A DNA stretch of 64,000 bases from Archaeoglobus sp. UBA230 (GTDB lineage: Archaea; Halobacteriota; Archaeoglobi; Archaeoglobales; Archaeoglobaceae). The translations under genes and the position numbers were made by a program. Under the pieces are notes generated by a model. That model saw only the letters and a list, made by a program, of their open reading frames with translations. It ran no database searches and was not told where the DNA came from. Each line of letters begins with the position of its first letter. The stretch's first letter is position 1. Shown one piece after another: positions 23,627 through 63,841 of the stretch. The stretch spans positions 62,001 through 126,000 of the forward strand of contig DAVR01000026.1 of assembly GCA_002507545.1 (NCBI GenBank). The letters run 5' to 3'.

Positions 23627-23998
23627 GTGATAACAGTGTTAAAAAGGAGGTATTTGATAATAGCCGGAGCTGCCCTGATACTGTTGAGTTATTACCTCCT
23701 AAGCGGGTTAGGGGGCCAAAATCAGGAAATTTCAGGGCTGCAAAAGGGAATATACTACTTCTACTCACCAAACTGTCACTACTGTCAGCAGATAGAGGGA
23801 TTTATAGAACAAATGTCACAGAAGTATTCAATAAACTACTGTCAGGTGGAGAAGCTCAGTGGTGAGTGTGAGAAACTTGCGAACTACATCGGGCTGAGGG
23901 GCGTTCCGACTGTGGCAATTGTAGATGGAAAGGTTACTGTTCTTACAGGTGTAAACGAAGTGCTGAAGCTGGAGGATGTTCTGAATGATAGTAGCTAA
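23627..23998 (+). CDS. Membrane-anchored thioredoxin-like protein (CHYC)
   Basis: The 123-residue protein has an N-terminal membrane anchor (LIIAGAALILLSYYLLSGLG) and a thioredoxin fold with CHYC in FYSPNCHYCQQIEGF and a cis-proline strand GVPTVAIVDG. Facing outside, it would keep apocytochrome haem-site cysteines reduced or handle CcmH. Start GTG 23627 is leaderless-like; a TTG at 23654 after AGGAGGT is an alternative. It overlaps ccmF by 14 bases. Confidence 0.82.
   Translation: MITVLKRRYLIIAGAALILLSYYLLSGLGGQNQEISGLQKGIYYFYSPNCHYCQQIEGFIEQMSQKYSINYCQVEKLSGECEKLANYIGLRGVPTVAIVDGKVTVLTGVNEVLKLEDVLNDSS
23630..23642. promoter_or_regulatory. TTAAC-N3-GTTAA-like site at the ccm operon start (9/10)
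   Basis: ATAAC-AGT-GTTAA differs from the window-wide motif by one base. It overlaps the first codons of the thioredoxin-like gene, 6 bases downstream of the 19-bp palindrome. Confidence 0.5.
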
Positions 23999-25925
23999 CC
24001 CCGGAAGCTTCTTACTGGCAACATCACTGCTGTTCTCACTCTATGCTTTCATAAACCTCTACACCAGTGTAACGAAAAGAGAAATAGAAGCTATCGGTAG
24101 GGTTAAGGTTTACATTCTTCTGTCTTTCGTCTCTTTAACACTCTCGCTGTTGACCTTAACTTATTACTTCCTGACGGACAATTTCTCCGTTGAATACGTT
24201 TTCAGCCACTCAACAGCAGATATGCCTTTAATCTACAAAATATCAGCTATATGGGCTGGTTCCGAAGGTTCCCTTCTCCTATGGGTCTGGCTTCTGTCGT
24301 TGATGATGCTTGTATTTATCCAGATTGAGCAAGAGGATTTGCTCACGGCATGCTCTCTTTCAATTCTCACAGCAGTCCAGAGCTTTTTTCTTACAGTCAA
24401 TTTAGTTCTCCTGAATCCCTTTGAGACAGTTGAGAACACACCACCACATGGACTCGGCCTCAATCCTCTCCTCGAAACACACGAGATGCTGTTCCATCCA
24501 CCCGTTCTCTTTGCAGGGTATGCAGCCTCAACTTTCCTGTTCGCTCTCTCTATTGCAGGACTATACCTGCTGGATGAGAGGTGGATTCTAAGACTCAGAA
24601 AGTGGGCTTTGACTACGTGGATGTTTCTCACTGCAGGCATTGCACTCGGAGCCTTCTGGGCATATCGCGTCCTCGGTTGGGGCGGTTTCTGGGGCTGGGA
24701 CCCGGTTGAGAATGCTTCTCTTCTGCCGTGGCTTACAGTAACGGCTCTCGTCCACAGTATAATGATCCAAGAAGCAAGAAGAGGAATGAAAATCTGGAAC
24801 ATACTGCTTTCAGTGGCTACCTTCGAATTCGTCCTTCTCGGAACACTCATTACAAGGAGTGGTGTGGTAAGCTCAGTCCACGCATTCGCGCAGAGCGAGA
24901 TTTCCTTTCCACTGACAGTTTTCATGATCGGAATTCTTGTTCTAACAGCAGACCTGCTGCACAGCAGGAGGAAGGAGATAGAGAGTCTTGACGTGATTGA
25001 GAGTCCTCTGTCAAAAGAGGCGAGTTTTCTTTTGAACAACCTGCTTTTCACGGCTTTTGCTCTGAGCGTTTTCTGGGGGACGATATTCCCCTTGCTTAGT
25101 GAGGGTTTTCTGGGTTACAAAGCCACCATAGGTGAACAATACTATCTGCAAACAACTTCCCCACTCGCATTCTCTCTGGTAGCTCTGATCGGGCTCTGTG
25201 TCGGACTTCAGTGGAGAAGGAGCAGTATAAAAACTCTCAGGACAATTGTGCTTGTGTTTCTGATATCTCTAACTACAGCACTCCCTATCGCATATCTGCT
25301 GAACCTGTCATTTCTCACTGCATTTTCGATTTCACTGGCAGTATTTTCCATCACCCTCCAAGTTTTCCAGTATTTCAGGGATATGATTGCCTTTAAAAAA
25401 GAGCTTGGTGGTATGAATTTCATAAAAATTATCCTCAAAAAGAGAAGGAGATATGGCGGATATACAGCACATCTTGGAGCAATAATCGTTTTTATCGGTG
25501 TTGTGTGTAACTGGACATATGCAGAAGAGCACGTCTTGAATCTCAAAACAGACGAACCCTTCGAATTTTATGGTCATACACTTGTATACAGGGGATACTC
25601 ATTCGAAAACACGTCGGTTAAAGCCAGTGCAAAGATACAGGTAGATTTTATTGAGGCTGGAAAACAGGTTTTTTCAAAAATCGAATACTATTACCTTCAA
25701 GATCAGGTCGTCAGAAGAGTTGGGATACTGCACGAACCGCTTCGTGACATCTACATAACTCCAGAGAAAATTGGGGATGAAAAGGGAGTATTCAGAGTGA
25801 AAATAAATCCTTTGACGAATTTCATATGGATCGGCTCGATTACGATGCTTCTCGGTGGAATGCTCTCTCTCACACCAAGAGCTCTCGTAATAAAAATGGT
25901 GAGCGATAAGGGTGATGGAGAATGA
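23985..25925 (+). CDS. ccmF: Cytochrome c haem lyase CcmF
   Basis: The 646-residue polytopic protein carries the haem-handling WWD signature WGGFWGWDPVENASLLPW (about residues 230-247) and conserved His residues in HEMLFHPPVLF and VHSIMI. The system I CcmF family attaches haem to CxxCH motifs on the outer face of the membrane. It sits between the thioredoxin-like protein and CcmH, with overlaps on both sides. CcmE and the CcmABC exporter are not in this window. Multihaem proteins at 31561 and 35191 are obvious clients. Confidence 0.9.
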   Translation: MIVANPGSFLLATSLLFSLYAFINLYTSVTKREIEAIGRVKVYILLSFVSLTLSLLTLTYYFLTDNFSVEYVFSHSTADMPLIYKISAIWAGSEGSLLLWVWLLSLMMLVFIQIEQEDLLTACSLSILTAVQSFFLTVNLVLLNPFETVENTPPHGLGLNPLLETHEMLFHPPVLFAGYAASTFLFALSIAGLYLLDERWILRLRKWALTTWMFLTAGIALGAFWAYRVLGWGGFWGWDPVENASLLPWLTVTALVHSIMIQEARRGMKIWNILLSVATFEFVLLGTLITRSGVVSSVHAFAQSEISFPLTVFMIGILVLTADLLHSRRKEIESLDVIESPLSKEASFLLNNLLFTAFALSVFWGTIFPLLSEGFLGYKATIGEQYYLQTTSPLAFSLVALIGLCVGLQWRRSSIKTLRTIVLVFLISLTTALPIAYLLNLSFLTAFSISLAVFSITLQVFQYFRDMIAFKKELGGMNFIKIILKKRRRYGGYTAHLGAIIVFIGVVCNWTYAEEHVLNLKTDEPFEFYGHTLVYRGYSFENTSVKASAKIQVDFIEAGKQVFSKIEYYYLQDQVVRRVGILHEPLRDIYITPEKIGDEKGVFRVKINPLTNFIWIGSITMLLGGMLSLTPRALVIKMVSDKGDGE

Positions 25926-26320
25926 GGGCTAAAATAATTCTGACCCTGCTTTTGCTGACGCTGAAGGCTTCCGGGCTCACCTTGCAGGACGTGGAGGGAG
26001 ATATAATATGCACATGTGGATGCGGCAAGCTGCTCAAAAACTGTGACTGTGGCGCGGCTGAGAAGATGAGAGAAGAAATAAGCGCAATGATTGAAGAAGG
26101 TAAAAACAGGGAAGAGATAGTATCAGCTCTCCAGCAGGTTTACGGAAAAGAGGTGCTCGCGACCCCACCAAAGGAGGGCTTTTTCCTGAGTCTGTGGATT
26201 TATCCCGCAATTGTTTTGATAGCAGGTTCGGTGATTGTTTACATGATTCTCCAAAAGAAGAGTTCTGAGTGGTTTGGTGATCCAGATGAGAACGTCAACA
26301 TTGAGGAGGAGGTGAAATGA
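25922..26320 (+). CDS. ccmH: CcmH-like cytochrome c maturation thiol protein
   Basis: The 132-residue protein has a signal-like N terminus, a Cys-rich segment (IICTCGCGKLLKNCDCG) in place of the usual LRCxxC, a helical VSALQQVYGKEVLATPP stretch and a C-terminal membrane anchor. CcmH presents reduced apocytochrome to CcmF. The extra cysteines are typical of archaeal variants. It overlaps ccmF and the methyltransferase gene by 4 bases each. Confidence 0.85.
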   Translation: MRAKIILTLLLLTLKASGLTLQDVEGDIICTCGCGKLLKNCDCGAAEKMREEISAMIEEGKNREEIVSALQQVYGKEVLATPPKEGFFLSLWIYPAIVLIAGSVIVYMILQKKSSEWFGDPDENVNIEEEVK

Positions 26321-27048
26321 AGAGAGACATGAAAAGATACAACAGAGTAGCAAGATTCTACGACATGGTAGAGAGTCTAATGGAACTTACGAACTTCAGG
26401 AGATGGAGAAGGACGCTCTTCAACTTTATCGAGAAAGAGGGAGAGAACTTGCTTGTCCTCGAAATTGGGGCTGGGACAGGCAAAAATCTACCCTTCTACC
26501 CGGATTTCAGTTTTGTTGCAGTGGACATAAGCGAGAAGATGCTCAAGAGGGCGGTAGAGAAAAATAAGAGATATGGAAAGAGGGTTGATTTCGTTATTGG
26601 TGATGCTGAAAAACTGCCATTCAGAGATGAGGCTTTTGATGTTGTTTTCTCAACCTTTGTCTTTTGCTCCGTGGATAATCCAGTCAATGGTCTGAAGGAG
26701 GCTTACAGGGTTCTCAAGAAAGGGGGCAAAGCCTACTTTCTGGAGCACATGCTCCCAGAGAACAGAGTCATTCAGCCATTCTTCCACCTTCTCAACCCCT
26801 TAACCAGACTTTTCGGTCCGGAAATCAACAGAAGGACGGACGAAAATATCAAAAAAGCAGGATTTAGGATTTTAAAGCAATATTTTCTTCTGGGAAGCGT
26901 TTTCAGACTCATAGTTGCAGATAAGGCGTTTGATTCAGGAGATAAAACGTTCCATCAGCTTATGAAACATTCTGAACCATCTGATGGTTCTGAATCTCGA
27001 CGTTTTGACCTGCAACATCTATTGCCCTTGAGGTTAACAGTGTTTTGA
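26317..27048 (+). CDS. Class I SAM-dependent methyltransferase (UbiE/PhoN-like)
   Basis: SAM motif I is VLEIGAGTGKNLPFYPDF, followed by VAVDISEKMLKRAVEKNK, FVIGDAEKLPFRDEAFDVV and YRVLKKGGKAYFLEHM. It resembles phosphatidylethanolamine or quinone methyltransferases, so a lipid or quinone substrate is possible. The expected family end is near VADKAF; the last 35 codons come from a hairpin repeat that recurs at 31255, so the C terminus appears extended by inserted DNA. It is translationally coupled to ccmH. Confidence 0.82.
   Translation: MKRDMKRYNRVARFYDMVESLMELTNFRRWRRTLFNFIEKEGENLLVLEIGAGTGKNLPFYPDFSFVAVDISEKMLKRAVEKNKRYGKRVDFVIGDAEKLPFRDEAFDVVFSTFVFCSVDNPVNGLKEAYRVLKKGGKAYFLEHMLPENRVIQPFFHLLNPLTRLFGPEINRRTDENIKKAGFRILKQYFLLGSVFRLIVADKAFDSGDKTFHQLMKHSEPSDGSESRRFDLQHLLPLRLTVF
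26970..27006. repeat. Hairpin-containing dispersed repeat, copy 1
   Basis: GAACCATCTGATGGTTC is a perfect 17-bp hairpin, followed by TGAATCTCGACGTTT. About 29 of 36 bases match 31255-31291 in the same orientation, including a compensated stem pair. It lies in the 3' end of the methyltransferase gene. It could be an end fragment of a small mobile element (IS200/605-type ends have hairpins), but no transposase is present. Confidence 0.55.
27034..27046. promoter_or_regulatory. Weak TTAAC-N3-GTTAA-like site (8/10)
   Basis: TTAAC-AGT-GTTTT lies 14 bases before the Met/Gly/Tyr-rich protein gene, just ahead of its GAGGTGAT ribosome site. The right arm has two mismatches, so it is only suggestive. 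Confidence 0.3.
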
Positions 27049-32149: not shown

Positions 32150-32536
32150 TTAAATGAAAACAATATTATCTGCACCAATAACCTCTGTCAACCCACCAAT
32201 TTTGTCAACCCACTTGGGTAAGTCCTCTTTTTTTAAATTGAACAGTTCCATGCTTCCTGAGCAGGCTATTATCCGAAGAGTTCCGAAAGACTTGCCGAGG
32301 TTTACGATCTGATCAAGTTCTCTCAGTATCCCTCTTTTTATTCCTCTCTCTATTATCTCTCTCTCCTCGTCCCCATCAAAGACCTTCTCTCGCATACATA
32401 TGTTTCTGAGAGCCCAGTAGGTAAGAAAAACCTGCACCTCCTCCTTCATCGAAGCAAGGATACTTGCTATGCTGAAAGCATGGTAAATTCGATCCCACTC
32501 TCCACTATGTATGATTATTCCAACTATACGATCCAT
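32150..32536 (-). CDS. DsrE-family protein (DsrE2-like)
   Basis: About 128 residues from ATG 32536 (MDRIVGIIIHSGEWDRIYHA). The fold pattern and the cysteine in LRIIACSGSMELF match the sulfur-binding strand of DsrE2-type sulfurtransferases, which exchange persulfide with TusA. I prefer ATG 32536 over an upstream start because a TTTTTAAAAGC box lies about 25 bases upstream and a TTAAC-N3-GTTAA-type site overlaps the transcript start. It is divergent from the sulfur-carrier operon, from which it may be co-regulated. Confidence 0.82.
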   Translation of the reverse strand: MDRIVGIIIHSGEWDRIYHAFSIASILASMKEEVQVFLTYWALRNICMREKVFDGDEEREIIERGIKRGILRELDQIVNLGKSFGTLRIIACSGSMELFNLKKEDLPKWVDKIGGLTEVIGADNIVFI

Positions 32537-32538
32537 GT

Positions 32539-32551
32539 TAAACACTGTTAA
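32539..32551. promoter_or_regulatory. TTAAC-N3-GTTAA site, DsrE promoter (9/10)
   Basis: TAAAC-ACT-GTTAA lies directly upstream of the start codon at 32536, over the expected start of a leaderless transcript. One mismatch to the motif. Confidence 0.65.
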
Positions 32552-32633
32552 CAAAGTTTTTAAAAGCTTATCGCAAGTTCTATTACAAATATGCATTTAA
32601 CACTGACCAAAAATTATTAATACTCATATTGAC

Positions 32634-32646
32634 TTAACACAGTTAT
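32634..32646. promoter_or_regulatory. TTAAC-N3-GTTAA site over the PLP-enzyme start (9/10)
   Basis: TTAAC-ACA-GTTAT covers the first two bases of the ATG at 32645. An AATTATTAATACT box sits about 25 bases upstream. A half site (TTAAC-ACT-GACC) lies at 32597. Confidence 0.6.
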
Positions 32647-33871
32647 GTATTTGAAGGGTTTGAAATGCAGAATTTGTGGAGAGGAGTATGCTGCCGAACC
32701 CATATACTACTGCAGCTACTGCTTTGGCCCCCTTGAAGCCGTTTACGATTACGAGAGGATAAAGGAGACGGTGACGAGAGAGGAGATAGAGAAGAGAGTG
32801 CAGAGCATATGGAGATACAGAGAGTTTCTGCCTGTAAATACGAAGCCAGTTGATCTCGGAGCTGGTTTCACCAGATTCATTCATGCCGAGAACCTCGGAA
32901 GAGAACTGGGGCTCAGGAACCTCTACCTGCTCGATGACTCCACTAACCCTACCTACTCCTTCAAAGATAGGGTTGTCAGCGTTGCAGTGACGAAAGCCAA
33001 GGAATTTGGATTCAAAGCAGTTGGATGTGCCTCTACAGGGAACCTCGCCGGCAGTCTTGCCGCCCATGCAGCAAAAGCAAGAATACCGGCCTACATCTTC
33101 GTTCCGGCTGGAATAGAGAAGAACAAAATAGTTCAGGCTTTAGTTCACGGGGCAAACGTGATAGAGGTTGAAGGTAGCTATGATGACGCCAACAGGCTTG
33201 CAACTGAGATTGCAGAAAGAAAGAGGGACTGGGGTTTCGTAAACATAAACCTCCGCCCCTACTATGTAGAGGGCAGCAAGACCCTCGCCTACGAAACCGC
33301 TGAGAGACTCGGCTGGACAACACCCGATCAGGTTATTGTTCCCGTCGCATCTGGGGCGCTGCTTTACTCTATATATCGCGGTTTCAGGGATTTCGAGCAG
33401 GTCGGGTTTGTTGGGGAGAGTGATGTCGTGTTCAACGCAGCCCAGCCTGCTAACTTTCCGGTAGCGAGGGCTATAAGGGAGGGAAAGGAAGTTGAGCCAG
33501 TTGAAAGGATTGAAACGATCGTGCACAGCTTAGCTATTGGCAATCCATCAGACGGGATATTCGCTAAGAAGGTTGTAGAGAAGAGCGGGGGCTATGCCGA
33601 AGACCCGACAGATGATGAGGTTATAGAGGCTGTTAGGCTCCTCGCAAGAACTGAGGGCATCTTTACCGAACTCGCTGGTGGTGTTACCATAGCATCCTTG
33701 AAGAGGCTCGTGGAAGAGGGAAGGATAGATGCGGATGATTTGGTGGTTGCCTACTTGACAGGAAACGGTCTCAAAACAGCTGATGCGATTGCTGGTAAAT
33801 TACAAACTGTCAAAATCAAGCCGAGAATCGAGGAATTTGAGAAACTGACGAATGTGGAGGTGTTAGCATGA
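32645..33871 (+). CDS. Threonine-synthase-like PLP enzyme linked to a sulfur carrier
   Basis: The 408-residue fold-type II PLP protein has a zinc-ribbon (CRICGEEYAAEPIYYCSYC), the PLP lysine in NPTYSFKDRVVSVA, the phosphate loop CASTGNLAGSLAAHAA and LTGNGLKTADAI. It is a ThrC paralogue of the gene at 20928. Here it overlaps a ThiS/MoaD-like gene and precedes an E1-like enzyme and TusA, so I infer that it may use a protein thiocarboxylate to sulfurate an activated amino acid (homocysteine or cysteine formation), as CysM-CysO or the Wolinella Hcy system do. Plain threonine synthase remains possible. Confidence 0.75.
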   Translation: MYLKGLKCRICGEEYAAEPIYYCSYCFGPLEAVYDYERIKETVTREEIEKRVQSIWRYREFLPVNTKPVDLGAGFTRFIHAENLGRELGLRNLYLLDDSTNPTYSFKDRVVSVAVTKAKEFGFKAVGCASTGNLAGSLAAHAAKARIPAYIFVPAGIEKNKIVQALVHGANVIEVEGSYDDANRLATEIAERKRDWGFVNINLRPYYVEGSKTLAYETAERLGWTTPDQVIVPVASGALLYSIYRGFRDFEQVGFVGESDVVFNAAQPANFPVARAIREGKEVEPVERIETIVHSLAIGNPSDGIFAKKVVEKSGGYAEDPTDDEVIEAVRLLARTEGIFTELAGGVTIASLKRLVEEGRIDADDLVVAYLTGNGLKTADAIAGKLQTVKIKPRIEEFEKLTNVEVLA

Positions 33872-34131
33872 AGGTAAGGCTTCCAGCGTCAATTTACAGA
33901 GATGCAGAAATAGAAATTGATGCTGATGAGATAACTGTAGAGGAACTTGTGAAAATTCTTTCTGAGAAGATAGGAAGAGACCTAAGGAAGCTGATAATAA
34001 GAAATGGAGACTTAAGCCCCTTTGTCAATGTATTTATAAACGGCAAGAATGTGAGGCATGAGAAGGGGTTAAAAACCATAGTGAAGAAGGGGGATGAAGT
34101 CTCGCTCGTTCCAGCAGTGGCTGGGGGTTGA
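33868..34131 (+). CDS. ThiS/MoaD-like sulfur-carrier protein
   Basis: The 87-residue beta-grasp protein ends in the diagnostic AVAGG, which an E1-like enzyme adenylates and converts to a thiocarboxylate. VEELVKILSEKIGRDL and FVNVFINGKNVRHEKG match the MoaD/ThiS fold. It overlaps the PLP enzyme by 4 bases and lies 16 bases before the E1-like gene. Roles in molybdopterin or thiamine synthesis are alternatives, but the PLP-enzyme overlap favours amino-acid sulfuration. Confidence 0.88.
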   Translation: MKVRLPASIYRDAEIEIDADEITVEELVKILSEKIGRDLRKLIIRNGDLSPFVNVFINGKNVRHEKGLKTIVKKGDEVSLVPAVAGG

Positions 34132-34147
34132 TGCGAGGATGATGTAA

Positions 34148-34957
34148 ATGGTAAAGCTGGATAGGAGTCAGATACGAAGGTATGCAAGGCAGCTGCTCAT
34201 CCCCGAAATTGGGGGCAGAGGGCAGGAAAAGCTGCTGGAAGCAAGTGTTCTTGTTGTAGGTGCAGGAGGGCTCGGAAGTCCGGTGATACAGTATCTTGCC
34301 GCTGCTGGAGTAGGCATGATTGGAATTGCTGACGGAGATGAGGTGGATGAAACAAACCTGCAGAGACAGACAATCCACGCGGGTAATCTCGGAATGAATA
34401 AGGCTGAATCCGCAGCACAGTTTGTTGAAAAGCTTAATCCAGATGTGAAGGTTGAAGCTTATCCCTTCAGCGTTACCGTTGAGAATGCGAGGGATTTGGT
34501 GAGGAGATATGACATTGTGGTGGACTGCACCGACACTTTCCCAGCAAGATTTCTGCTGAACGATGCCTGCCTGCTCGAATCAACACCTCTCGTTCATTCC
34601 GCAGTTCTCAGGTTTGAGGGGCAGATAATGACGATTATCCCCCACGAGACAGCATGCTACAGATGCTTTCTGCCCGAAGCTCCTCCGCCGGGCAGCGTGC
34701 CTACATGCAGGGAGGCGGGAGTTATTGGGGTTACAACTGGCTTTTTTGGGGTTCTGCAGGCGAATGAAGTGATAAAGCTGATAATCAGCAAGGGAGAGTT
34801 GTTCACTAACAAACTGCTTTACGTTGATCTGCTTCACAACGACTTCAATCTGATAGAGATTAGTAAACATCCTTCGTGCCCGGCTTGCGGGGAGAGGAGA
34901 ATAAAGGAGCTGAGGAGTGAATACTATGTCGAGACGTGCAGAATCGAGACAGATTGA
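34148..34957 (+). CDS. E1-like adenylyltransferase (MoeB/ThiF/HesA family)
   Basis: The 269-residue protein begins RRYARQLLIPEIGG and has the nucleotide loop VVGAGGLGSPVIQYLAAAGV, DETNLQRQTIH, the catalytic Asp region VVDCTDTFPARFLLND and zinc pairs CYRCF and CPACG. It adenylates the C-terminal GG of the upstream carrier. The C-terminal rhodanese domain of eukaryotic forms is missing; the adjacent TusA could supply sulfur. Its 3' end overlaps tusA by 32 bases. Confidence 0.9.
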   Translation: MVKLDRSQIRRYARQLLIPEIGGRGQEKLLEASVLVVGAGGLGSPVIQYLAAAGVGMIGIADGDEVDETNLQRQTIHAGNLGMNKAESAAQFVEKLNPDVKVEAYPFSVTVENARDLVRRYDIVVDCTDTFPARFLLNDACLLESTPLVHSAVLRFEGQIMTIIPHETACYRCFLPEAPPPGSVPTCREAGVIGVTTGFFGVLQANEVIKLIISKGELFTNKLLYVDLLHNDFNLIEISKHPSCPACGERRIKELRSEYYVETCRIETD

Positions 34958-39263: not shown

Positions 39264-39289
39264 ATTCTTCATCTTCATTTTAAACTTTG

Positions 39290-43936: not shown

Positions 43937-43952
43937 TTTTATAAAGTAGAAA

Positions 43953-44439: not shown

Positions 44440-44440
44440 A

Positions 44441-48949: not shown

Positions 48950-48977
48950 AACATTATTAAAAATAACATTTTAACAT

Positions 48978-48990
48978 TTAACAATGTTAA
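48978..48990. promoter_or_regulatory. TTAAC-N3-GTTAA site, FmdE promoter (perfect)
   Basis: TTAAC-AAT-GTTAA lies 43 bases before ATG 49033, upstream of GATTTAAAAAAT. It is also in the shared region with the divergent DUF22 gene. Confidence 0.7.
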
Positions 48991-49611: not shown

Positions 49612-49681
49612 GGTCTTCAACCGAAAAATTTAGGGATAAGTTTTATAATATTAATTACAACTGAATAAAGCAGGTGGTGTG

Positions 49682-52375
49682 ATGGGGATTAGCAGGAGGG
49701 ATTTTCTTAAAATATCGGCTATAGGAGGAACTCTTCTGTCTGGTCTCGGATCATATTACTTTCAGAGGGTTGCAGGAATTCAGCAGAGCGGTGTGGAACT
49801 GAAGACAGTTCGATCAGTATGCTCTCCCAACTGCACTGGAGCTTGTGGCTTTGAAGCGCTCGTTTATAATGGCAGGATTGAAACCCTGACTCAGGCAGCT
49901 GACTATCCCGAATCAGAATACGATCCGCGGGGCTGTCTGAGGGGGCAATCAATGGTCAATCTAATTTACGGGCCGGACAGGCTTAAAAAACCGCTTATTA
50001 GGGTTGGAAAAAGGGGGGAGGGGAAATTCAGAGCAGTGAGCTGGGATGAAGCTCTCGATCATGTTGCCGACAAACTTGTGGAGATAATGAGAAAATATGG
50101 TCCGGAGTCGGTTGCAATTTCGATACAAGTACCGGGTACAGGTTACGTGCATAAAGGGGCGATGGTAAGACTTGCATCAATGTTCGGCTGGAGCTCTCTA
50201 CACGGCTACACCATGAACGGCGATCTACCAGCTTTCTGGTCTCAGACATTTGGTGTGCAGACTGAGGAATTTGAGTCACTCGAATGGGCAAATTCCCGCT
50301 ATGTCGTCATATTCGGTTCAAACGTTATGGTCACTCGCCTTCCAGATGCGAAGTTCCTCACACTCGCCGCAGAGAGGGGAGCAAAGATAGCGGTTGTGGA
50401 CCCCAACTTCACTCCCACAGCGGCGAAAGCCGATGAGTGGGTGCAGATAAACCCCTCAACTGACTCCGCCCTCGCTTTAGGAATAGTTCGAGAGATCATC
50501 AATAAGGGGCTGTACGATGAGGAGTTTATCAAAACTTACACCGACATGCCCCTGCTTGTAAGGCTCGACAACAAGAAGAGGTTGAGGGCACAGGATGTGA
50601 AAAGGCTTAAAGAGGTTGTCGAAAAGATGGATGTTCCCGAATATAGAGAGGTATTCGTCATCTATGACGTAAATAATGGCTTTAAGCCCGTTAATCCCGA
50701 AACCCTCGAGAGGGATTTTGATCCGATTTTGGAGGGAGAATTCGAGGTAAAACTTGTTGACGGGAAGACTGTAAAGGTTAAGCCCGTTTTCCAGCTTCTC
50801 AAGGAGGAGGTTGAAAAATACACGCCCGAGAAGGTTGCTGAAATCATAACCCCACCAAACAGAGACAAGTCTGAATACACTGAAACCATAAGAAGGCTTG
50901 CGGTAGAGATGGCAACTGTAAAACCTTTGCATATCATATACGGGGCGAGTAACTACCAGTGGTTCCACGGAGACCTGAAGGGAAGGGCTCTCTCCTTAAT
51001 AGTAGCCCTCACGGGTAACATAGGAAAGAGTGGAGCTGGTATATCAACCTACGCTGGACAATTCAAGATAAGGTGGCCGCTCGGGGCATGGTGGAGCTTC
51101 AAGGGAAGGAAAAACAAGTGGGTTACCTACCTTCTCTGGATGAACAAAGAGTATAGGGAGAGCGAAGAATTCAAGAAGTACAACAGGGAGACACCATACC
51201 CGAAGAATGATGTCAAAGCCTTTCTCTTCGGATGGAACAATCCCTTCGACCAACACAATATGGCGAACAGAATGATAGAATATGCTGAAAGCGGGGAACT
51301 GGAGCTAATCGTTGCCATTGACTTCCAGATGACCACATCGTGCAAGTGGGCAGATGTTGTGTTGCCGGGAGTGACATGGTATGAGAAATACGAACTCACC
51401 GCAACGATTCTTCACCCCTACGTCCAGATTCAGCAGCCCGCTATTGAACCACTATTCGAGTGTATGCCGGAGATATGGATATTCAAGGAGCTGGCAAAAA
51501 GGCTTGTTGAAAGATGGGACGATGAGGAGCTTAAGAGAAGGATTGCCGAGTTCTACCCGGATTCCCAGCTGTTCATGGAAGAGGAGGAGGCTATAAGAGG
51601 AGGTAGATGGAACCTGAAACTTGCCAGAGAAATAGCGAACAAAGCCTCACTAAAGGCTATCGAGCTTATGCTCGAAACGGGAGGGGAACTTGTCGAAGGT
51701 ATCACACTCGAAAAGTTGCTGAAGGGTCCCGTAAGGCTAAACCTCCCTACACCAAACAAAAGGCAGATTCCGTTCTGGGAGCAGATAAATCTCAAAAAGC
51801 CGTTTCCACCGCAGTCATTCCCAGTCCCGCTCTCAAAAACTGCAAGATTCGTTAAGAGTGGGAGGATAGAGTTCTACAAGGAAGAAGACGTTTTCATTGA
51901 TCTGGGCGAAACTTTGCCGGTTCACAAAGACCCCTTCGTTGATACCGAATACAAGGTAAATCCCGAAGCGAAGATGAAGTATAAGTATGTTTATATCACA
52001 AGAAACGCCCTCTACAGAGTCCACTCGACTCACAGCAACAACATAACGATGCTCGAACTTCAGGACTTCAAGCCAAGAGTATGGATGAATCCTCAAACTG
52101 CTAAGGAGAATGGCATCAAAGAAGGAGATCTGGTTGAAGTTTACAACGATCGCGGCAAAGTTTATGGTTATGCGGTTTTTGATACAGGACTGCATCCGGG
52201 CGTCATAATCTTCGAGCAGGGATGGTGGAGCAGGTATCTGAGGGGGACTTCCTACAACTCCCTCACGTATCCATGGATCAAAGCCACTCATCTCGCCTAC
52301 TTTGTTCCAGGAATATGGGAGCCCACCACAGCATGGAATGAGGCTGCATGCGCTGTGAGAAAGGTTCAGATGTAG
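49682..52375 (+). CDS. psrA: Polysulfide/thiosulfate reductase-like molybdopterin catalytic subunit
   Basis: The 897-residue protein has a Tat signal (GISRRDFLKISAIGG), an N-terminal [4Fe-4S] site (CSPNCTGACG, later CLRG), molybdopterin-binding segments (ALSLIVALTGNIGKSGAGIS; WMNPQTAKENGIKEGDLVEV) and is of DMSO-reductase family length. With an Fe-S and an NrfD subunit downstream it fits PsrABC/PhsABC, which reduce polysulfide or thiosulfate outside the membrane. Arsenate, tetrathionate or sulfite as substrate cannot be excluded. Start ATG 49682 (GTG 49679 also possible), after GGTGGTGTG. Confidence 0.85.
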   Translation: MGISRRDFLKISAIGGTLLSGLGSYYFQRVAGIQQSGVELKTVRSVCSPNCTGACGFEALVYNGRIETLTQAADYPESEYDPRGCLRGQSMVNLIYGPDRLKKPLIRVGKRGEGKFRAVSWDEALDHVADKLVEIMRKYGPESVAISIQVPGTGYVHKGAMVRLASMFGWSSLHGYTMNGDLPAFWSQTFGVQTEEFESLEWANSRYVVIFGSNVMVTRLPDAKFLTLAAERGAKIAVVDPNFTPTAAKADEWVQINPSTDSALALGIVREIINKGLYDEEFIKTYTDMPLLVRLDNKKRLRAQDVKRLKEVVEKMDVPEYREVFVIYDVNNGFKPVNPETLERDFDPILEGEFEVKLVDGKTVKVKPVFQLLKEEVEKYTPEKVAEIITPPNRDKSEYTETIRRLAVEMATVKPLHIIYGASNYQWFHGDLKGRALSLIVALTGNIGKSGAGISTYAGQFKIRWPLGAWWSFKGRKNKWVTYLLWMNKEYRESEEFKKYNRETPYPKNDVKAFLFGWNNPFDQHNMANRMIEYAESGELELIVAIDFQMTTSCKWADVVLPGVTWYEKYELTATILHPYVQIQQPAIEPLFECMPEIWIFKELAKRLVERWDDEELKRRIAEFYPDSQLFMEEEEAIRGGRWNLKLAREIANKASLKAIELMLETGGELVEGITLEKLLKGPVRLNLPTPNKRQIPFWEQINLKKPFPPQSFPVPLSKTARFVKSGRIEFYKEEDVFIDLGETLPVHKDPFVDTEYKVNPEAKMKYKYVYITRNALYRVHSTHSNNITMLELQDFKPRVWMNPQTAKENGIKEGDLVEVYNDRGKVYGYAVFDTGLHPGVIIFEQGWWSRYLRGTSYNSLTYPWIKATHLAYFVPGIWEPTTAWNEAACAVRKVQM

Positions 52376-52391
52376 GCGTGAAGGTGGTAGT

Positions 52392-53147
52392 ATGGTGAGA
52401 TACGGGATGGTCATTGACTTGAACAGGTGCATCGGATGCAGAAGCTGTGCCGTCATCTGCAAGATACACAACTCCTTACCGCCGGGGACTTGGTGGCACA
52501 GGGTGGAGACTGTCGGCTCCAGAGAGCATCATGTGTCTGTAGGGAAGTTTCCCGATCTGAGCGAGGTATATCTTCCAGTCCCGTGCATGCATTGCGACAA
52601 TCCCCCATGCGTGAAGGTCTGTCCCGTCGGCGCTACTTGGAAGAGAGAGGATGGTGTGGTGCTGGTTGACTTTGAAAGGTGCATAGGCTGCAGATACTGC
52701 ATGACCGCCTGTCCTTACGGAGTTAGACAGTTTAACTGGGAAGATAAGGAAAAGGCAATCGAGAAGGGGTTCAGGACAGCGGGTTTTGATGGAGAGTATG
52801 TTGATGGATACAGACATGGATATCCATTGGATCACAGGACGAAGGATGGTAGATTAGTTTACACCCCAGAAAGACCGAGGGGTGTGGTGGAGAAATGCAC
52901 CTTCTGCGTGCAATACATTGATCAGGGATTGAAGCCCGCATGCGTCCGAGGCTGTCCGGGCAATGCCAGAATTTTCGGCGATCTCGACGATCCCAACAGC
53001 GAGATTTCGAAGGTTTTGAGAGACAAGGCTTATATCAGACTGCTTGAAGATGTCGGAACCGAACCAAAGGTTTTCTACATCCTGCCGGTGCGTAAGAAGG
53101 GCAGAGGGATTATTAGCTACTCAACCAAGCTGGAGGTGAAAAGATGA
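52392..53147 (+). CDS. psrB: Four-cluster ferredoxin subunit (PsrB/DmsB type)
   Basis: The 251-residue protein has four cluster motifs: CIGCRSCAVIC, CMHCDNPPCVKVCP, CIGCRYCMTACP and a fourth with CTFC plus CVRGCP. It passes electrons from the membrane subunit to the molybdenum subunit. No signal peptide is seen; co-export with PsrA by the Tat route is usual. It lies 16 bases after psrA and overlaps the NrfD gene by 4. Confidence 0.92.
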   Translation: MVRYGMVIDLNRCIGCRSCAVICKIHNSLPPGTWWHRVETVGSREHHVSVGKFPDLSEVYLPVPCMHCDNPPCVKVCPVGATWKREDGVVLVDFERCIGCRYCMTACPYGVRQFNWEDKEKAIEKGFRTAGFDGEYVDGYRHGYPLDHRTKDGRLVYTPERPRGVVEKCTFCVQYIDQGLKPACVRGCPGNARIFGDLDDPNSEISKVLRDKAYIRLLEDVGTEPKVFYILPVRKKGRGIISYSTKLEVKR

Positions 53148-54358
53148 AATTTAGGGCAGCAATTGCAATACTACTCATCATCGCTGCAATAGGAATTGCA
53201 GCTTGGATTTACCAGCTTCAGGAGGGGTTGATAGTTACCAACATGCGTAATCCCTTCAGCTGGGGACTTTACATCGCCACATGGGCTTTCTTCGTCGGCA
53301 CAGCTGCTGGTGGGCTTGTGGTTTCATCCGCGATCTACATCTTTGGGGCTAAGGAGTTTAAGCCGATTGCTCCTGTGGCTTCTACGACAGCTTTCATCTT
53401 CGCTGTGGGTGCAATGGTTATGGTGCTGCCAGACCTGGGTAGGGTGGACAGAATCTTCAACATCTTCCTGTATCCCAACTTCTCATCCCTCATGCCCTGG
53501 GATCTGATAGTTCTTTCCACCTATGCCTTCCTTTCGGCGATTTACACCTATGTTCTCCTCATGCCGAGGATAGCCGAAAAAGGTGTGCTGGGATTCCTGA
53601 AGAGAGGCTCTCCGAATGTGGACGAACTCAGGGAGAAGTCGGAGAGGTATGCCAAAATCCTCGCTCCCATCGCCCTGCCCTTCGCCATACTCATCCACAC
53701 TGTTACTGCATGGGTTCTGGCAACACAGCTATCAAGACCTTGGTGGTACGGAGGGCTCCTTGCTCCAACCTTTATCGCAGCTGCGATTGCCACAGGTCCA
53801 GCGGTGGTGATACTTGCCTCACTTTTCGTTTACGGATACAACGAGAGACTTAAAAATGCATACAGACTGCTCGCGAAGATTTCTGCATCCTCCTCAGCAG
53901 CTCTCCTCTTCATGTATTACAACGACTTCCTCGTAAGATACTGGTGGGGAGAAGGACTGGAATACGAGGCTCTGGCAATCGTCTTTAAGGATTACCTCCA
54001 CATTCACTTCCTCGAAATCGTGTTCATCCTACTCGCCGCTGCAATTCTTGCAAAAGCCGCAACGAAGATGGGGTTGGTAGTGGGTAGTGTCTTCGTGAAC
54101 GTCGGTGTTTACTTCCACAGATTTCTGCTTATGCCTCCAGCCTATAACGTCTTCGCCTTCCAGATTGAAGGGTGGTCATATCCAATAGCTCTTGGAGAAG
54201 TGAGGGGAAGCCTGCTCAACCCCCAGCCCGTTTTCGTGGACTACTGGAACTATATTCCATCACCGGTAGAGATTGCGATCACCGCAGGGATTTCAGCAAT
54301 TCTACTACTCGTTCTCGTTGCATTGCTGAAGGTTCTTCCAGTGAGCGAGGATACATGA
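53144..54358 (+). CDS. psrC: NrfD/PsrC-family membrane quinone-oxidising subunit
   Basis: The 404-residue protein has about nine to ten membrane spans with GLYIATWAFFVGTAAGGLVV and MVLPDLGRVDRIFNIFLYPN, typical of NrfD/PsrC. It anchors PsrAB and supplies electrons from menaquinol or its equivalent. It overlaps psrB and the chaperone gene by 4 bases each. Confidence 0.92.
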   Translation: MKFRAAIAILLIIAAIGIAAWIYQLQEGLIVTNMRNPFSWGLYIATWAFFVGTAAGGLVVSSAIYIFGAKEFKPIAPVASTTAFIFAVGAMVMVLPDLGRVDRIFNIFLYPNFSSLMPWDLIVLSTYAFLSAIYTYVLLMPRIAEKGVLGFLKRGSPNVDELREKSERYAKILAPIALPFAILIHTVTAWVLATQLSRPWWYGGLLAPTFIAAAIATGPAVVILASLFVYGYNERLKNAYRLLAKISASSSAALLFMYYNDFLVRYWWGEGLEYEALAIVFKDYLHIHFLEIVFILLAAAILAKAATKMGLVVGSVFVNVGVYFHRFLLMPPAYNVFAFQIEGWSYPIALGEVRGSLLNPQPVFVDYWNYIPSPVEIAITAGISAILLLVLVALLKVLPVSEDT

Positions 54359-54828
54359 AAGAGAAGATACTCAAACTCTTTTCCATAATTTTTTCCTATC
54401 CTGATGAGGAGAAACTTAAGACTGCAATTTCCCTTGCTGAAGAACTTGGATTCAGTGAGATAGCAGAGAAACTGAAAGTGGTGGATATGGTAGAACTCCA
54501 GTCTGAATACACACTTCTCTTCATTTCAGCTCACCCCTCAATCCCCTGTCCACCTTACCAGTCCTACTTCGAAGAAGGAAAGGTTTACGGGAGGGCTTCG
54601 GTGAGGATTAAGGACCTCTACCTGAAATTCGGTCTTGACTACGTTTATGAAGCTGAACCAGCAGACCACATCTCTGTCGAGCTCGAATTTCTGTCCTTCT
54701 ATCCCGAACATTTGGATGAATTCAGGGATTGGTTTCTGAAGTTTGCTGACTGCGTGGAGAGAAATTCCAGCATCTATTCAATCTTTGCAAGGGCATTCAG
54801 GATATTTCTGACAGATGCGGGGCGTTGA
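54355..54828 (+). CDS. TorD/DmsD-family redox enzyme maturation chaperone
   Basis: About 157 residues from ATG 54355 (MKEKILKLFSIIFSYPDEEK), overlapping the psrC stop. The helical fold with LQSEYTLLFISAHPSIPCPP and ADHISVELEFLSFY matches TorD-type chaperones, which bind Tat signals and help load the molybdenum cofactor. Its partner is PsrA. A longer upstream open frame lies inside psrC and was rejected. Confidence 0.9.
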   Translation: MKEKILKLFSIIFSYPDEEKLKTAISLAEELGFSEIAEKLKVVDMVELQSEYTLLFISAHPSIPCPPYQSYFEEGKVYGRASVRIKDLYLKFGLDYVYEAEPADHISVELEFLSFYPEHLDEFRDWFLKFADCVERNSSIYSIFARAFRIFLTDAGR

Positions 54829-57440: not shown

Positions 57441-57486
57441 GAGTCTCGAACAAGTGTAATTGGGTTAGATGAGGAGAGTGAGTAGT

Positions 57487-57765
57487 ATGTCACTTGAAGA
57501 GTGGATTAAGGCTGAAAGCCTTGAAAAGGCTGAAGAGTATCACAAAAGATACAACTATGCCATAACCAATTCGATCAGGAGGAAAATACTCAGGATGATT
57601 CAGGAAGGTAAGAGCGAGGAGGAGATAATGCAGAGCTTATCCATAACCAAAAAGCAGCTGGATTATCACCTAAAAATCCTCGAATATGGATTTTGCATAA
57701 AGAGGGAGGGTGACAGGTGGATTGTTACCGAAGCAGGAAATATTGTAGACAAAATTAGGGGGTGA
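57487..57765 (+). CDS. Winged-helix transcriptional regulator (ArsR-like)
   Basis: The 92-residue protein has NYAITNSIRRKILRMIQEGK followed by EEIMQSLSITKKQLDYHLKI, a helix-turn-helix in the style of archaeal ArsR/SurR-like regulators, and an alkaline wing (CIKREGDRWIVT). One Cys lies in the wing region. I chose ATG 57487 with GGAGAG close upstream; ATG 57469 is possible. Co-transcription with FprA suggests a redox-responsive regulator and makes it a candidate for the window's sulfur/redox operator motif, unproven. Confidence 0.75.
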   Translation: MSLEEWIKAESLEKAEEYHKRYNYAITNSIRRKILRMIQEGKSEEEIMQSLSITKKQLDYHLKILEYGFCIKREGDRWIVTEAGNIVDKIRG

Positions 57766-59239: not shown

Positions 59240-60052
59240 CTATCTACTATAGCCATAACCCTTCCATACCAACGGCAGCGTTACAGCAAGGTAACCAAGC
59301 TGCACAAAAACTCTCAACCACTCCATCTTCACAGCATAGCCGAACATAACAGCCAGAATCCCGCCAACGATATTCTCGTTATGGAGGATGCTGCTCTCAT
59401 CAAGTCCGAAATCGTATGCTGGTTCAAAGAGCCAGGTTTCCACACCTAACTCCTCCTCGGCAACCTCTATCAGCTCGTGGGTGCCATATCCTGCAAGCCC
59501 AGAGGATATGAATACCAGAAGCATGCTCGTTAAATAGAAGAACATCCTCATGCTCAGCCTGTACTCCATCCTGAGTATGGTGAAACTGAGTAAAAAGGCA
59601 ACAAAAACTCCTGCCAATGATCCTATCACTGTCCCGAAGGTATCGTGGATTGCGAAGGGTGTCAGGAACAGGACAGCTTCAACCACTTCTCTGATAACAA
59701 ACACATAGGCTATCAGGGCTACACCTCTCGCAATCCTCTTCCCCACCCTTGTCTCTATCTCCCTCCTCACATCTCTGCCAGCCATCCAGAGTATCATATA
59801 TGTCAGAACGCCAACCGCGAGATAAGATGCAAAACCCTCAAAAAGCTCCCTTTGCCCTCCCTCCAGGCCTCCATAAACCCTGACAATAGCAAGAGCTATG
59901 CCTGCACCGGATAAAAGCGCTGCAATTGCACCATAATAGGCAAATTTGATCTCTCCCACCCTTCCAGTCCTTCTCAGATATGCTACTAGTATCGCTACAA
60001 GCAATACAGCTTCGAACCCTTCTCTCAATGAAATTACGAACTGTCCCAGCAT
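59240..60052 (-). CDS. FTR1-family iron permease
   Basis: The 270-residue protein has two REGxEx-type motifs (SLREGFEAVLLVAILV; VIREVVEAVLFL) in membrane helices that bind iron, and about seven spans in total. It imports ferric or ferrous iron depending on partner. I chose ATG 60052; GTG 60061 is three codons earlier and would overlap an operator. Both an iron box and a TTAAC-N3-GTTAA site lie directly upstream, so iron and sulfur/redox control may meet here. A poorly conserved loop (GVETWLFEPAYDFGLD) precedes the last helices. Confidence 0.9.
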   Translation of the reverse strand: MLGQFVISLREGFEAVLLVAILVAYLRRTGRVGEIKFAYYGAIAALLSGAGIALAIVRVYGGLEGGQRELFEGFASYLAVGVLTYMILWMAGRDVRREIETRVGKRIARGVALIAYVFVIREVVEAVLFLTPFAIHDTFGTVIGSLAGVFVAFLLSFTILRMEYRLSMRMFFYLTSMLLVFISSGLAGYGTHELIEVAEEELGVETWLFEPAYDFGLDESSILHNENIVGGILAVMFGYAVKMEWLRVFVQLGYLAVTLPLVWKGYGYSR

Positions 60053-60054
60053 GC

Positions 60055-60067
60055 TTAACACCGTTAT
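60055..60067. promoter_or_regulatory. TTAAC-N3-GTTAA site, FTR1 promoter (9/10)
   Basis: TTAAC-ACC-GTTAT lies 3 bases before the FTR1 ATG at 60052, immediately next to the iron box. Confidence 0.6.
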
Positions 60068-60068: not shown

Positions 60069-60084
60069 TTTAGGCTATCCTAAA
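60069..60084. promoter_or_regulatory. DtxR/MDR1-type iron box before FTR1
   Basis: TTTAGG-CTAT-CCTAAA has the same arms and spacer length as the box before feoB (41050). A likely TATA box (AAATTTATAA on the minus strand) adjoins it. Confidence 0.8.
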
Positions 60085-60419: not shown

Positions 60420-61706
60420 TCAATCACCTAAAAGTCTTTTGACATACTCAACCATCTCCTCGACGCTTAAGTTCTCTGCTTCCTTCCAGCCGTGGATGAA
60501 GACATCATAAAGCTGCTTTCCACCCTTTACCCTCCCACAAAGACCTATCTCAGCCAATGGATGACATCCACAAGCGTTGCTGCATCCGCTGACAGCAACA
60601 AACCCTCCATTTTCGGGCAATAGTCTTAAAACATCCTTTGCATGGAGAATTGTTTTGCCACAGAAGTTTGAAGCGCATGCAACATACATTCTCGGTTTGC
60701 TCAGGTCAAATTTCTCGCTCAGATGCTCCTTCAAAGCTTCGACATCGTCAACATCGGTAAACAAAACATTCTGCCAGGGTGTGAGCCTTATCCCGCCGAA
60801 TTCATCAGCAACATCTGCAAGGAATCGCAGCTTGGAGGAGTCGAGAAGTCCGGCAAAGACCGGAAGGGTGTAGTAGAACTTTCCATCGTCCTGTAAACCC
60901 TCTAAATGTTCCGATGGAGCATTCAGGCTGAAATTATTCGCCCTTTCAAACTTAACCCCCATTCTTTGCTCGATTTCCTCCCTTATCCTCTTGCAACCCA
61001 CCTTCTCAACAAAATTCTTGAACCTCGCCTCCCCTTTTCTCTCAGCATCGAACTCTCTGTAGAGATCAACTACAGCCTTTGCGAACTCAAAAGCCTCATC
61101 TTCGTAAACCAGAATTCCCAAATTCTTCGCCTTCCTCACCCCAGGCTTTGAGGCTCCTATTCCACCTCCAACCAAAGGAACGAAACCATCACCATTCCAG
61201 CAGAGTGTTAAGTCATGATTTTCTTCCCTTATACAATTATTCTCGCAGGTGGAAATGCCGATTTTGAACTTATGAGGGAGTCTGACGTAGTCCGGGTTGC
61301 CTGAGAAAAATTCCGTAATCTCCTTAACGAGCCAGTATGCATCATAACCCTTTTTCCCCGACAAAGGGCAGCAGACTGTGTTTCTAACATCTCCATGACA
61401 GACTTCAGAGAAAGCCTGACCGCATAAGTCTGTGGTGAAACCGAGCTTCTCCATCTCAAGGAATATTTCCAGAGCATCTTCAGCCTCAATCCAGTGTAAC
61501 TGGATATCCTGCCTCGTGGTTATCTCGGCATAACCCCTACCATATTTGTCCGATAACTCTGCTATCCCTCTGAGTTGTTCTGTCGTCAGACTCCCTCCAG
61601 GTATTTTGACCCTGAGGAAATGGTCTGACCCGTTGCCATTGTCTCTACCCAAGGAAAACCTCCAGATGAACCTATCCAGCTTTGGCAGTTCAATATCTAT
61701 TGCCAT
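60420..61706 (-). CDS. Siroheme nitrite/sulfite reductase
   Basis: The 428-residue protein has the ferredoxin-like repeat GRGYAEITTRQDIQLHWIEA, and siroheme/[4Fe-4S] Cys motifs CASNFC and GCSNACGCHPLAEIGLCG. It is shorter than plant or bacterial assimilatory enzymes (500-600) and resembles the small archaeal family. It most likely reduces sulfite to sulfide with ferredoxin in the cytoplasm; nitrite is the alternative. The upstream perfect TTAAC-N3-GTTAA site and the downstream tusA gene favour sulfite. Confidence 0.87.
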   Translation of the reverse strand: MAIDIELPKLDRFIWRFSLGRDNGNGSDHFLRVKIPGGSLTTEQLRGIAELSDKYGRGYAEITTRQDIQLHWIEAEDALEIFLEMEKLGFTTDLCGQAFSEVCHGDVRNTVCCPLSGKKGYDAYWLVKEITEFFSGNPDYVRLPHKFKIGISTCENNCIREENHDLTLCWNGDGFVPLVGGGIGASKPGVRKAKNLGILVYEDEAFEFAKAVVDLYREFDAERKGEARFKNFVEKVGCKRIREEIEQRMGVKFERANNFSLNAPSEHLEGLQDDGKFYYTLPVFAGLLDSSKLRFLADVADEFGGIRLTPWQNVLFTDVDDVEALKEHLSEKFDLSKPRMYVACASNFCGKTILHAKDVLRLLPENGGFVAVSGCSNACGCHPLAEIGLCGRVKGGKQLYDVFIHGWKEAENLSVEEMVEYVKRLLGD

Positions 61707-61713: not shown

Positions 61714-61726
61714 TTAACATTGTTAA
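61714..61726. promoter_or_regulatory. TTAAC-N3-GTTAA site, sulfite reductase promoter (perfect)
   Basis: TTAAC-ATT-GTTAA lies 7 bases upstream of the start codon at 61706 (minus strand), with a TTAATAAATTTTT promoter box beyond it. Confidence 0.75.
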
Positions 61727-63306: not shown

Positions 63307-63308
63307 AC

Positions 63309-63734
63309 TCAGTGTCCTCTGTGTGCTTTCCTTTCAGCCTCCATCATGCTCTCGTCTATCTTGCCTGAGTATGGTTGAACATTTCCACTGACTCTGACGA
63401 TGAACCCTTCCGTATCAAGTCCCCTGTTGAACTCTTCCTTCGCTTTTTCAACCATGAGATGGAGAGCATGACAGCATGGAACTTCCATCGTGTATATCTC
63501 CAGTTTACGAGCATCTGTTTCAGATACGAGCATCTTTATCCTCTCGAACATCCTCTTCGGGTCTTCGAGCATCGGACAGCCGATGATTACCGTTTCATCT
63601 TCGAACTTATCCCTAATCTCTTGATTAATGAGGACAGCACAATCAGCAGCAATGACTATCCTCTCTTTCTTCAGGAAGGGAGCCTTTGGATGCACGAGCA
63701 TTATCTTAACCGGCCATTGTTTGACTTCCTGCAT
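63309..63734 (-). CDS. Cys-containing oxidoreductase-associated protein
   Basis: The 141-residue protein has GCPMLEDPKRMFERIKMLVS, a YTMEVPCCHALHLMVEKAKE segment and an N-terminal IVIAADCAVLINQEIRDKF. It resembles the C-terminal part of archaeal ferredoxin-fusion proteins where the Cys could bind an Fe-S cluster or metal. Pairing with the ferredoxin suggests a split version of such a protein. The exact family is unclear. Confidence 0.65.
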   Translation of the reverse strand: MQEVKQWPVKIMLVHPKAPFLKKERIVIAADCAVLINQEIRDKFEDETVIIGCPMLEDPKRMFERIKMLVSETDARKLEIYTMEVPCCHALHLMVEKAKEEFNRGLDTEGFIVRVSGNVQPYSGKIDESMMEAERKAHRGH

Positions 63735-63828
63735 GTTTATCTTTTTATTTCTACGCCGACTTTTACCTTTCCCCTAAAATCTTCGTTTTTTTAACGATTT
63801 CAAAAATGGGCAACCGTTAAATACTCTC

Positions 63829-63841
63829 TTAACAACGTTAA
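63829..63841. promoter_or_regulatory. TTAAC-N3-GTTAA site, last tusA promoter (perfect)
   Basis: TTAAC-AAC-GTTAA ends 4 bases before ATG 63846, with CCGTTAAATAC as promoter box about 30 bases upstream. Confidence 0.75.

Follow-up and report, generated by a model that had tools for sequence, protein, structure and literature searches.

Which protein reads a short palindrome that recurs before the sulfur and iron genes of an archaeal genome, and is the palindrome an operator at all? The question is raised by a stretch of 64,000 nucleotides from Archaeoglobus sp. UBA230 (contig DAVR01000026.1, positions 62,001 to 126,000), hereafter the window, in which a first-pass annotation had noticed copies of TTAAC-N3-GTTAA. 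Our analysis suggests that the palindrome, in the longer form TTAACA-N-TGTTAA, would be the operator of a 111-aa helix-turn-helix (HTH) autorepressor with three cysteines that senses sulfur or iron-sulfur (Fe-S) status, and we give this reading, drawn from sequence comparison, a probability of about 0.83. The sites are almost certainly a genuine operator set, and the identity of the regulator is strongly inferred. The motif, its clustering, its conservation at orthologous promoters, the operon position of the regulator gene, the presence of the motif, in some relatives, before the regulator gene itself and the conservation of its cysteines were computed directly. The sharper motif, the candidate regulator and the pairing of regulator and motif in other archaea are additions to the first-pass annotation.

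All five perfect copies claimed earlier were found where they had been placed, at 39290, 44819, 48978, 61714 and 63829. The claim that five promoter copies are not due to chance is borne out by dinucleotide shuffling, in which perfect 10-base copies averaged 0.04 with a maximum of one, and none of the 100 shuffles reached five. With up to one mismatch, the window contains 17 matches (shuffle mean 1.60, maximum 6), including all seven one-mismatch copies named previously and five more at 39281, 48948, 41426, 50682 and 9891. The first two of these adjoin perfect sites, while those at 41426 (inside feoB) and 50682 (inside a molybdenum (Mo) enzyme gene) look like chance matches. The one at 9891-9903, TTAAGAAGGTTAA, occupies a 24-base gap between two open reading frames (ORFs), outside the regulon island.

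The genome (G000) has 2,274,654 bases, of which the window makes up 2.8%, and five of its eight perfect 10-base copies are inside the window. Alignment of the flanks revealed A-N-T centres at most promoter sites, hence the better motif TTAACANTGTTAA (TTAACA-N-TGTTAA). Without mismatches this refined form occurs three times in the genome, each time in the window, against none for a reversed-pattern control; with up to one mismatch it occurs 15 times against eight, and 11 of the 15 lie in one 40-kb stretch of the window. The four sites outside the window are found on C10 and C20, both inside long reading frames, and on C1 and C38. Across 55 genomes of the family, 43 perfect motifs were counted against 13 reversed controls.

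A matrix was built from 13 chosen window sites, leaving out 9891, 27034, 30305, 39281, 41426, 44810, 45620 and 50682. Start distances were measured for 12 of the 13, without 23630, whose start codon is not settled, and 11 of the 12 centres lie 0-79 nucleotides upstream of a start codon. The exception is 36765, which sits inside the octahaem cytochrome gene. Read by eye, the operators commonly stand between the TATA box and the start. The sites and the genes that they precede are as follows.

23630-23642: operator ATAACAGTGTTAA, in the interval that separates the MarR/DUF7343 gene from the ccm operon; identical beside the MarR orthologue in the G001 ccm region.
32539-32551: operator TAAACACTGTTAA, centre 9 nucleotides before the dsrE-like start at 32536 (minus strand); orthologous sites in G001 and G032.
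32150-32536, minus strand: DsrE-like gene (Pfam).
32634-32646: operator TTAACACAGTTAT, overlapping the start of the gene for the threonine synthase-like pyridoxal phosphate (PLP) enzyme (plus strand); also at the orthologues in G001, G009, G022 and G032.
32645-34957, plus strand: genes for the threonine synthase-like PLP enzyme, ThiS and ThiF.
36765-36777: candidate site CTAACAGTGTTAA, in early codons of the octahaem cytochrome gene, 24 nucleotides inside.
39281-39302: tandem operators TAAACTTTGTTAACAACGTTAA that overlap, upstream of the larE TATA box; same sequence in G001.
39333-40130, plus strand: larE (NCBIfam TIGR00268).
43924-43965: operators TAAACACTGTTAA and TTAACAGTGATAA, before the small gene pair 43999-44761 (earlier called a membrane pair).
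44819-44831: perfect operator TTAACACTGTTAA, before SepCysS.
44840-46920, plus strand: SepCysS and DUF169 genes.
48948-48990: operators TTAACATTATTAA and TTAACAATGTTAA, before the FmdE and Mo-oxidoreductase genes.
49033-54828, plus strand: FmdE and Mo-oxidoreductase genes.
60055-60067: operator TTAACACCGTTAT, at the FTR1 start (minus strand), adjoining a DtxR-like box at 60069-60084.
59240-60061, minus strand: FTR1-type iron permease.
61714-61726: perfect operator TTAACATTGTTAA, before the sulfite reductase-type gene (minus strand).
60420-61706, minus strand: sulfite/nitrite reductase-type protein.
63829-63841: operator TTAACAACGTTAA, heading the tusA-dsrE-iscS-iscU-HTH operon.
63846-64000, plus strand: start of tusA; the operon runs beyond the window end.

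The candidate site at 36765 overlaps what reads as signal-peptide codons and is the weakest member of the set, and the feoB match in the window is also weak, with three mismatches at 41078. The regulon proposed in the first-pass annotation is supported, but the label 'sulfur/redox' is better replaced by sulfur and iron acquisition, sulfur transfer and respiratory enzymes. The DsrE ORF listed as 32150-32596 begins too early, and its relatives and the operator suggest 32536 as the true start. The DtxR-like box in the FTR1 promoter is a DtxR/IdeR-like palindrome, TTTAGGCTATCCTAAA, that is also found in the A. fulgidus-like genome G001 (L058, just before 16051), where the FTR1 orthologue carries both the operator and the box. 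Two regulators seem to act on FTR1, and the product of the DtxR-FeoA gene (42984-43607) is a candidate for the second.

Conservation upstream of orthologous sulfur genes, whose absence had been named as one of the results that would refute the motif, is present in both G001 (one contig of 2,178,400 bases) and G032, a genome of another genus. Allowing two mismatches, G001 has sites before SepCysS, sulfite reductase, DsrE, larE, tusA, the threonine synthase-like PLP enzyme, FTR1, feoB and FmdE, as well as at the ccm region, and its octahaem cytochrome gene has two sites in a divergent gap shared with another gene. All seven perfect sites of G032 precede larE, tusA, the PLP enzyme, FmdE, SepCysS, DsrE and sulfite reductase. 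The upstream site of the sulfite reductase-type gene is perfect in both genomes, and the FmdE operator has two mismatches in G001 and none in G032. In G002, the orthologues of the small gene pair 43999-44761 have paired two-mismatch sites upstream.

The site also distinguishes regulon genes from their paralogues. Counting mismatches (at most two of ten), we found a site at 12 of the 15 regulon-type SepCysS genes but at only one of the 15 housekeeping paralogues, and at eight of the 14 regulon-type ThrC-like genes compared with one of 14 paralogues; the rows L345 (incomplete gene) and L339 (short upstream region) were left out of this comparison. Three genomes of the same genus (G003, G005 and G006) have a larE that is about 82-85% identical and keeps the TATA region, yet the operator is gone. 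No match to the HTH protein was found in these three genomes, which are 96, 79 and 99% complete, respectively, while the larE operator is present in the HTH-bearing G001 and G032.

The candidate regulator is encoded 2 kb past the window end (G000:C34:128110-128442; L016:2110-2442; 66110-66442 in window numbering), and its gene is the last of the tusA-dsrE-iscS-iscU-HTH operon headed by the 63829 site. The order of this operon is the same in G001, G002 and G032 (with dsrE matched in part in G032), and a perfect site precedes tusA in all three. In G001 the regulator is duplicated (L060:3803-4138 and L061:15957-16292), and each copy follows dsrE, iscS and iscU. HTH_3 is the best Pfam match, at the cut-off (23.1 against 23 bits), and is matched by all 21 family members, compared with weak matches to the ArsR-type HTH_5 in eight of the 21. 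The predicted structure has six helices with a mean predicted local distance difference test score (pLDDT) of 89, and the HTH can be assigned to helices 2-3 from the sequence. No solved relative over the length of the protein was found by sequence, nor by fold search at E ≤ 0.001; the best PDB sequence score, that of 8vd6 (E 3.6e-14), consists of five short-repeat copies, each with E above 1. There was no NCBIfam match above the curated cut-off either, and the protein is without an assigned function in the databases searched.

Cys5, Cys93 and Cys96, the last two forming a C-terminal Cys93-x2-Cys96 motif, are invariant in the 21 family members. To these can be added more distant relatives found by scanning genome contigs with the regulator alignment, from which 80 of 114 loci were kept. 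All three cysteines are present in 78 of the 81 wider relatives; L265 and L291 are without Cys5, which may be cut off since the match begins at residue 12, and L292, an HTH-ThiN fusion, is the sole relative of the 81 without the C-terminal CxxC. The scan was seeded with a recognition-helix pattern, so that conservation of the helix is by construction, but the cysteines lie outside that pattern. The relatives occur in anaerobic methanotrophic archaea (ANME)/Methanosarcinales, Archaeoglobi, Bathyarchaeota, Thermoproteota and DPANN loci, and in one bacterial metagenome-assembled genome. Their neighbours include iscS and iscU (L248), an IscU-like gene (L250), SufS-type aminotransferases (L253 and L287), PALP enzymes resembling cysteine synthase by sequence (L239 and L259), ThiI (L269) and Thi4 (L291).

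In eight genomes in which the HTH gene has another location (G008, G010, G022, G023, G027, G029, G030 and G031), a site with at most two mismatches stands immediately ahead of its start. Scored with the matrix, 12 of the 24 HTH self-promoters in the family exceed the 95th background percentile and seven the 99th, compared with four and two of 18 for the MarR protein and two and one of 30 for an ArsR-like protein of the window. Orthologues of the HTH protein were detected in 23 of the 55 family genomes, and the perfect motif occurs in 19 of these 23 against four of the 32 without the protein; the reversed control motif occurs in seven of 23 and four of 32 (p 0.17). The presence cut-offs (E below 1e-25 for MarR, below 1e-17 for ArsR and 1e-3 for HTH) were of our own choosing.

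A wider promoter test used 92-base promoters and the matrix trained on window sites only, and covered 79 loci after one more had been dropped for lack of upstream sequence. Scores above 10 bits were obtained for 16 of the 79 regulator promoters, ten of them among the 64 outside Archaeoglobi, but for only one of 216 promoters belonging to other genes of these loci. When the half-sites of the matrix were permuted (150 permutations), a mean of 1.4 and a maximum of 8 were obtained, against the observed 10. The exact form TAAC-Nx-GTTA was found with a spacer of three in nine and of four in 23 of the 79 promoters, against one and two of the 216 controls, respectively. Spacers of 0-2 and 5-8 were found in none of the 79, spacers of 9 and 10 in seven each, and the controls had 0-2 of 216 at any spacer. 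The loci with a spacer of four are mainly from ANME/Methanosarcinales and are closely related, and therefore do not represent 23 independent events. In these loci (among L227-L290) the own-promoter TAAC-N4-GTTA, mostly TAACAATTGTTA, replaces the form with a three-base spacer.

A number of observations weigh against the assignment to the HTH protein or against the motif as such. Genome-wide, the plain 10-base form with up to one mismatch is no commoner than its reversed control (108 against 163 sites), and the refined form with up to two mismatches is not enriched either (157 against 172), so that the frequency comparison proposed in the first-pass annotation came out in favour of the motif only for the refined form, which is concentrated in the window; the strength of the case accordingly lies in clustering, position and conservation. 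Inspection of the weaker genome-wide sites covered 50 of the 108 and 50 of the 157. The remaining 12 of the 24 HTH self-promoters, including those of tusA-operon members, are not above the 95th percentile; in G000, G001, G002 and G032 the HTH gene has no site immediately ahead of it, the operator standing before tusA instead, and the second G001 operon (dsrE-iscS-iscU-HTH) has three-mismatch matches only. Four genomes (G011, G012, G046 and G047) have the HTH protein and no perfect site, and four others (G015, G018, G021 and G054) a perfect site and no HTH protein. Several g7, g8 and g10 genomes lack the ThrC operator, and the larE operator is absent from G046, which has the protein. No operator was seen at those more distant larE homologues that were examined (identity of about 63% or lower), many of them in HTH-bearing genomes, and the absence of the protein from G005 is less sure because that genome is 79% complete. 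Sulfur-gene neighbours were found in a minority of the wider loci, with none detected by homology search at most of the distant ones.

The best surviving alternative is that the membrane-anchored MarR/DUF7343-type protein (23059-23541, minus strand) is the regulator and relays a redox signal from the envelope. Its co-occurrence with the motif is even better than that of the HTH protein, which also counts against our assignment: the perfect motif is present in all 18 genomes with a strong MarR orthologue and in only five of the 37 without one. Its gene adjoins the ccm site at 23630, and there are nearby sites in G000, G001, G002, G009, G010 and G013. However, no MarR/DUF7343 match at E ≤ 0.001 was found in G032 (96% complete) despite its seven perfect regulon sites, eight of the nine g6 and g7 MarR loci shown have no site nearby at two mismatches, and the motif at the HTH promoters of other archaeal lineages would be left unexplained. 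The MarR self-promoter scores above the 95th percentile, given above as four of 18, are on the side of this protein, which may itself be a target of the regulon. We consider it an unlikely regulator. In the window the MarR/DUF7343 gene stands in a row with those for a BlaI-type repressor and an M48-like peptidase (22009-23541), beside the ccm operon.

It is more improbable still that another regulator in or near the window reads the motif, be it the BlaI-type protein (22649-23008, minus strand), the ArsR-like protein (57469-57765, plus strand), PadR or DtxR-FeoA. BlaI-family operators, TACA-n(n)-TGTA, resemble the ACA-N-TGT core, and the BlaI gene adjoins sites in G000 and G002; a Penicillinase_R (BlaI) protein was found in these two genomes, but there was no match in the regulon stretches of G001 and G032, the whole genomes of which were not searched. 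BlaI was the first candidate tried, for the likeness of its operator to ACA-N-TGT, and was dropped since the G001 ccm stretch has no BlaI gene. Both G001 and G032 have the ArsR-like protein, but its association with the motif is weaker (21 of 33 genomes with it and two of 22 without), and it was rejected for its poor own-promoter score. For DtxR, the palindrome TTTAGGCTATCCTAAA in the FTR1 promoter is the better candidate. HcpR and Lrp-type regulators were also considered; for HcpR, no CRP/FNR protein was found among the window proteins scanned; the rest of the genome was not searched. Lastly, that the palindrome is a core-promoter or AT-rich feature enriched regionally, as its AT-rich sites, often beside TATA boxes, and the genome-wide count of the one-mismatch 10-base form could suggest, is hardly credible given the shuffles, the clustering, the paralogue promoters largely without a site, the single promoter of 216 above 10 bits, the preference for spacers of three and four and the loss of the larE site with the TATA region kept.

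For the three-cysteine HTH protein, DNA binding, dimer formation, repression, the ligand and the signal are the parts of the proposal that we infer. The protein probably binds as a pair, one copy to each TTAAC half-site. Since the operators mostly fall downstream of the TATA box and ahead of the start codon, the bound protein should prevent transcription, that of its own operon included; autorepression is the simplest reading, and repression is the probable mode of action. At larE and FmdE the operator lies upstream of the TATA box, so that activation is also possible there, which speaks against a purely repressive role. The probable role of the three cysteines is to carry an Fe-S cluster or to sense persulfide, and repression would be lifted when sulfur or Fe-S clusters run short or when the sulfur species change. 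Sulfur transfer, cysteine synthesis dependent on transfer RNA, sulfite reduction, iron uptake and cytochrome maturation would then be derepressed, together with Mo-dependent reductases of the oxyanion or polysulfide type. The location with iscSU, the cysteines and the list of targets favour an Fe-S or sulfane-sulfur signal, for which the odds, judged from these sequence features, may be about even.

Two A. fulgidus operons with two-mismatch sites are presumably AF0157-0160 and AF0173-0176, the numbers having been assigned from position, spacing and gene sizes. Clusters AF0157-0160 and AF0173-0176 are reported as (per)chlorate-induced (PMC3949148), and induction by oxidised sulfur species would fit this. 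In the parts covered of three A. fulgidus transcriptome studies (PMC3949148, PMC4543118 and PMC8322695), no measurement of the regulon as such was found.

Several known systems share features with the proposed one. Like SurR of Thermococcales, the candidate would be a regulator that responds to sulfur in archaea, contains cysteines and has a short motif made of GTT/AAC half-sites. The SurR motif is given as GTTn3ATC or GTTn3AACn5GTT (PMC12162507), and SurR itself as a winged HTH of the ArsR type whose CxxC is N-terminal, in agreement with the first-pass annotation that the orientation differs; the window sites, TTAAC-N3-GTTAA, are in the opposite orientation and do not match the SurR motif, and the candidate matches HTH_3 best and has its CxxC at residues 93-96. 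With IscR/SufR it shares a gene in an iscSU operon, apparent autoregulation and cysteines, as judged from its locus, and by analogy it may work like IscR. IscR is a Rrf2-family winged-helix protein, but none of the candidate's 13 matched families is Rrf2 (for other family members, the check covered 25 of the 62 matched families). The HTH-ThiN architecture is one that we take to be ThiR, the archaeal thiamin repressor; L292 matches regulator residues 1-53 at 53% and has ThiN at 141-306, whereas the 111-aa candidate has no ThiN, and ThiN was not found in G000. BlaI/MecI/CopY proteins share the ACA-N-TGT-like operator core, but the half-site in the window is longer, TTAAC. Literature searches for the motif in several spellings and for its half-sites returned only unrelated work; for COG2522, a label for the HTH family, no paper was found, and nothing relevant was noticed in the ThiR literature. 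A Methanosarcina study concerns, in the part covered, an ArsR protein (PMC3510493).

To our knowledge, no IscR-like regulator has been described for archaea. It is about an even chance that an ancient family of three-cysteine HTH autorepressors, present across many archaeal lineages and with operators TAAC-N3-GTTA or TAAC-N4-GTTA, is the counterpart of IscR, and that ThiR is a derivative in which the cysteine sensor was swapped for ThiN. Such a family would comprise sensors of Fe-S clusters or sulfane sulfur that control sulfur transfer, cysteine and iron acquisition, with the operator spacing depending on the lineage. If this is true, the control of sulfur and Fe-S genes in archaea would have its motif, its regulon and a specific protein, sulfur homeostasis in many uncultured lineages could depend on a single small family that is as yet uncharacterised, and roles could be suggested for poorly known regulon genes such as DUF169 beside SepCysS and the small pair 43999-44761.

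Some further sites were observed. At 27034-27046, a two-mismatch site lies over the end of a ccm-region gene, and similar sites in G001, G002 and G009 stand just before the next start. Overlapping operators precede a gene for a TauE/SafE sulfite exporter at L235:990-1016, and downstream of it SepCysS (with its own site), DUF169 and the regulator (with its own site) form a compact version of the regulon. A perfect site at L139:1501-1513 precedes a hemerythrin-type gene that is followed by a DsrE-like gene, and another at L160:5041-5053 precedes a gene placed as in L139, again followed by a DsrE-like gene.

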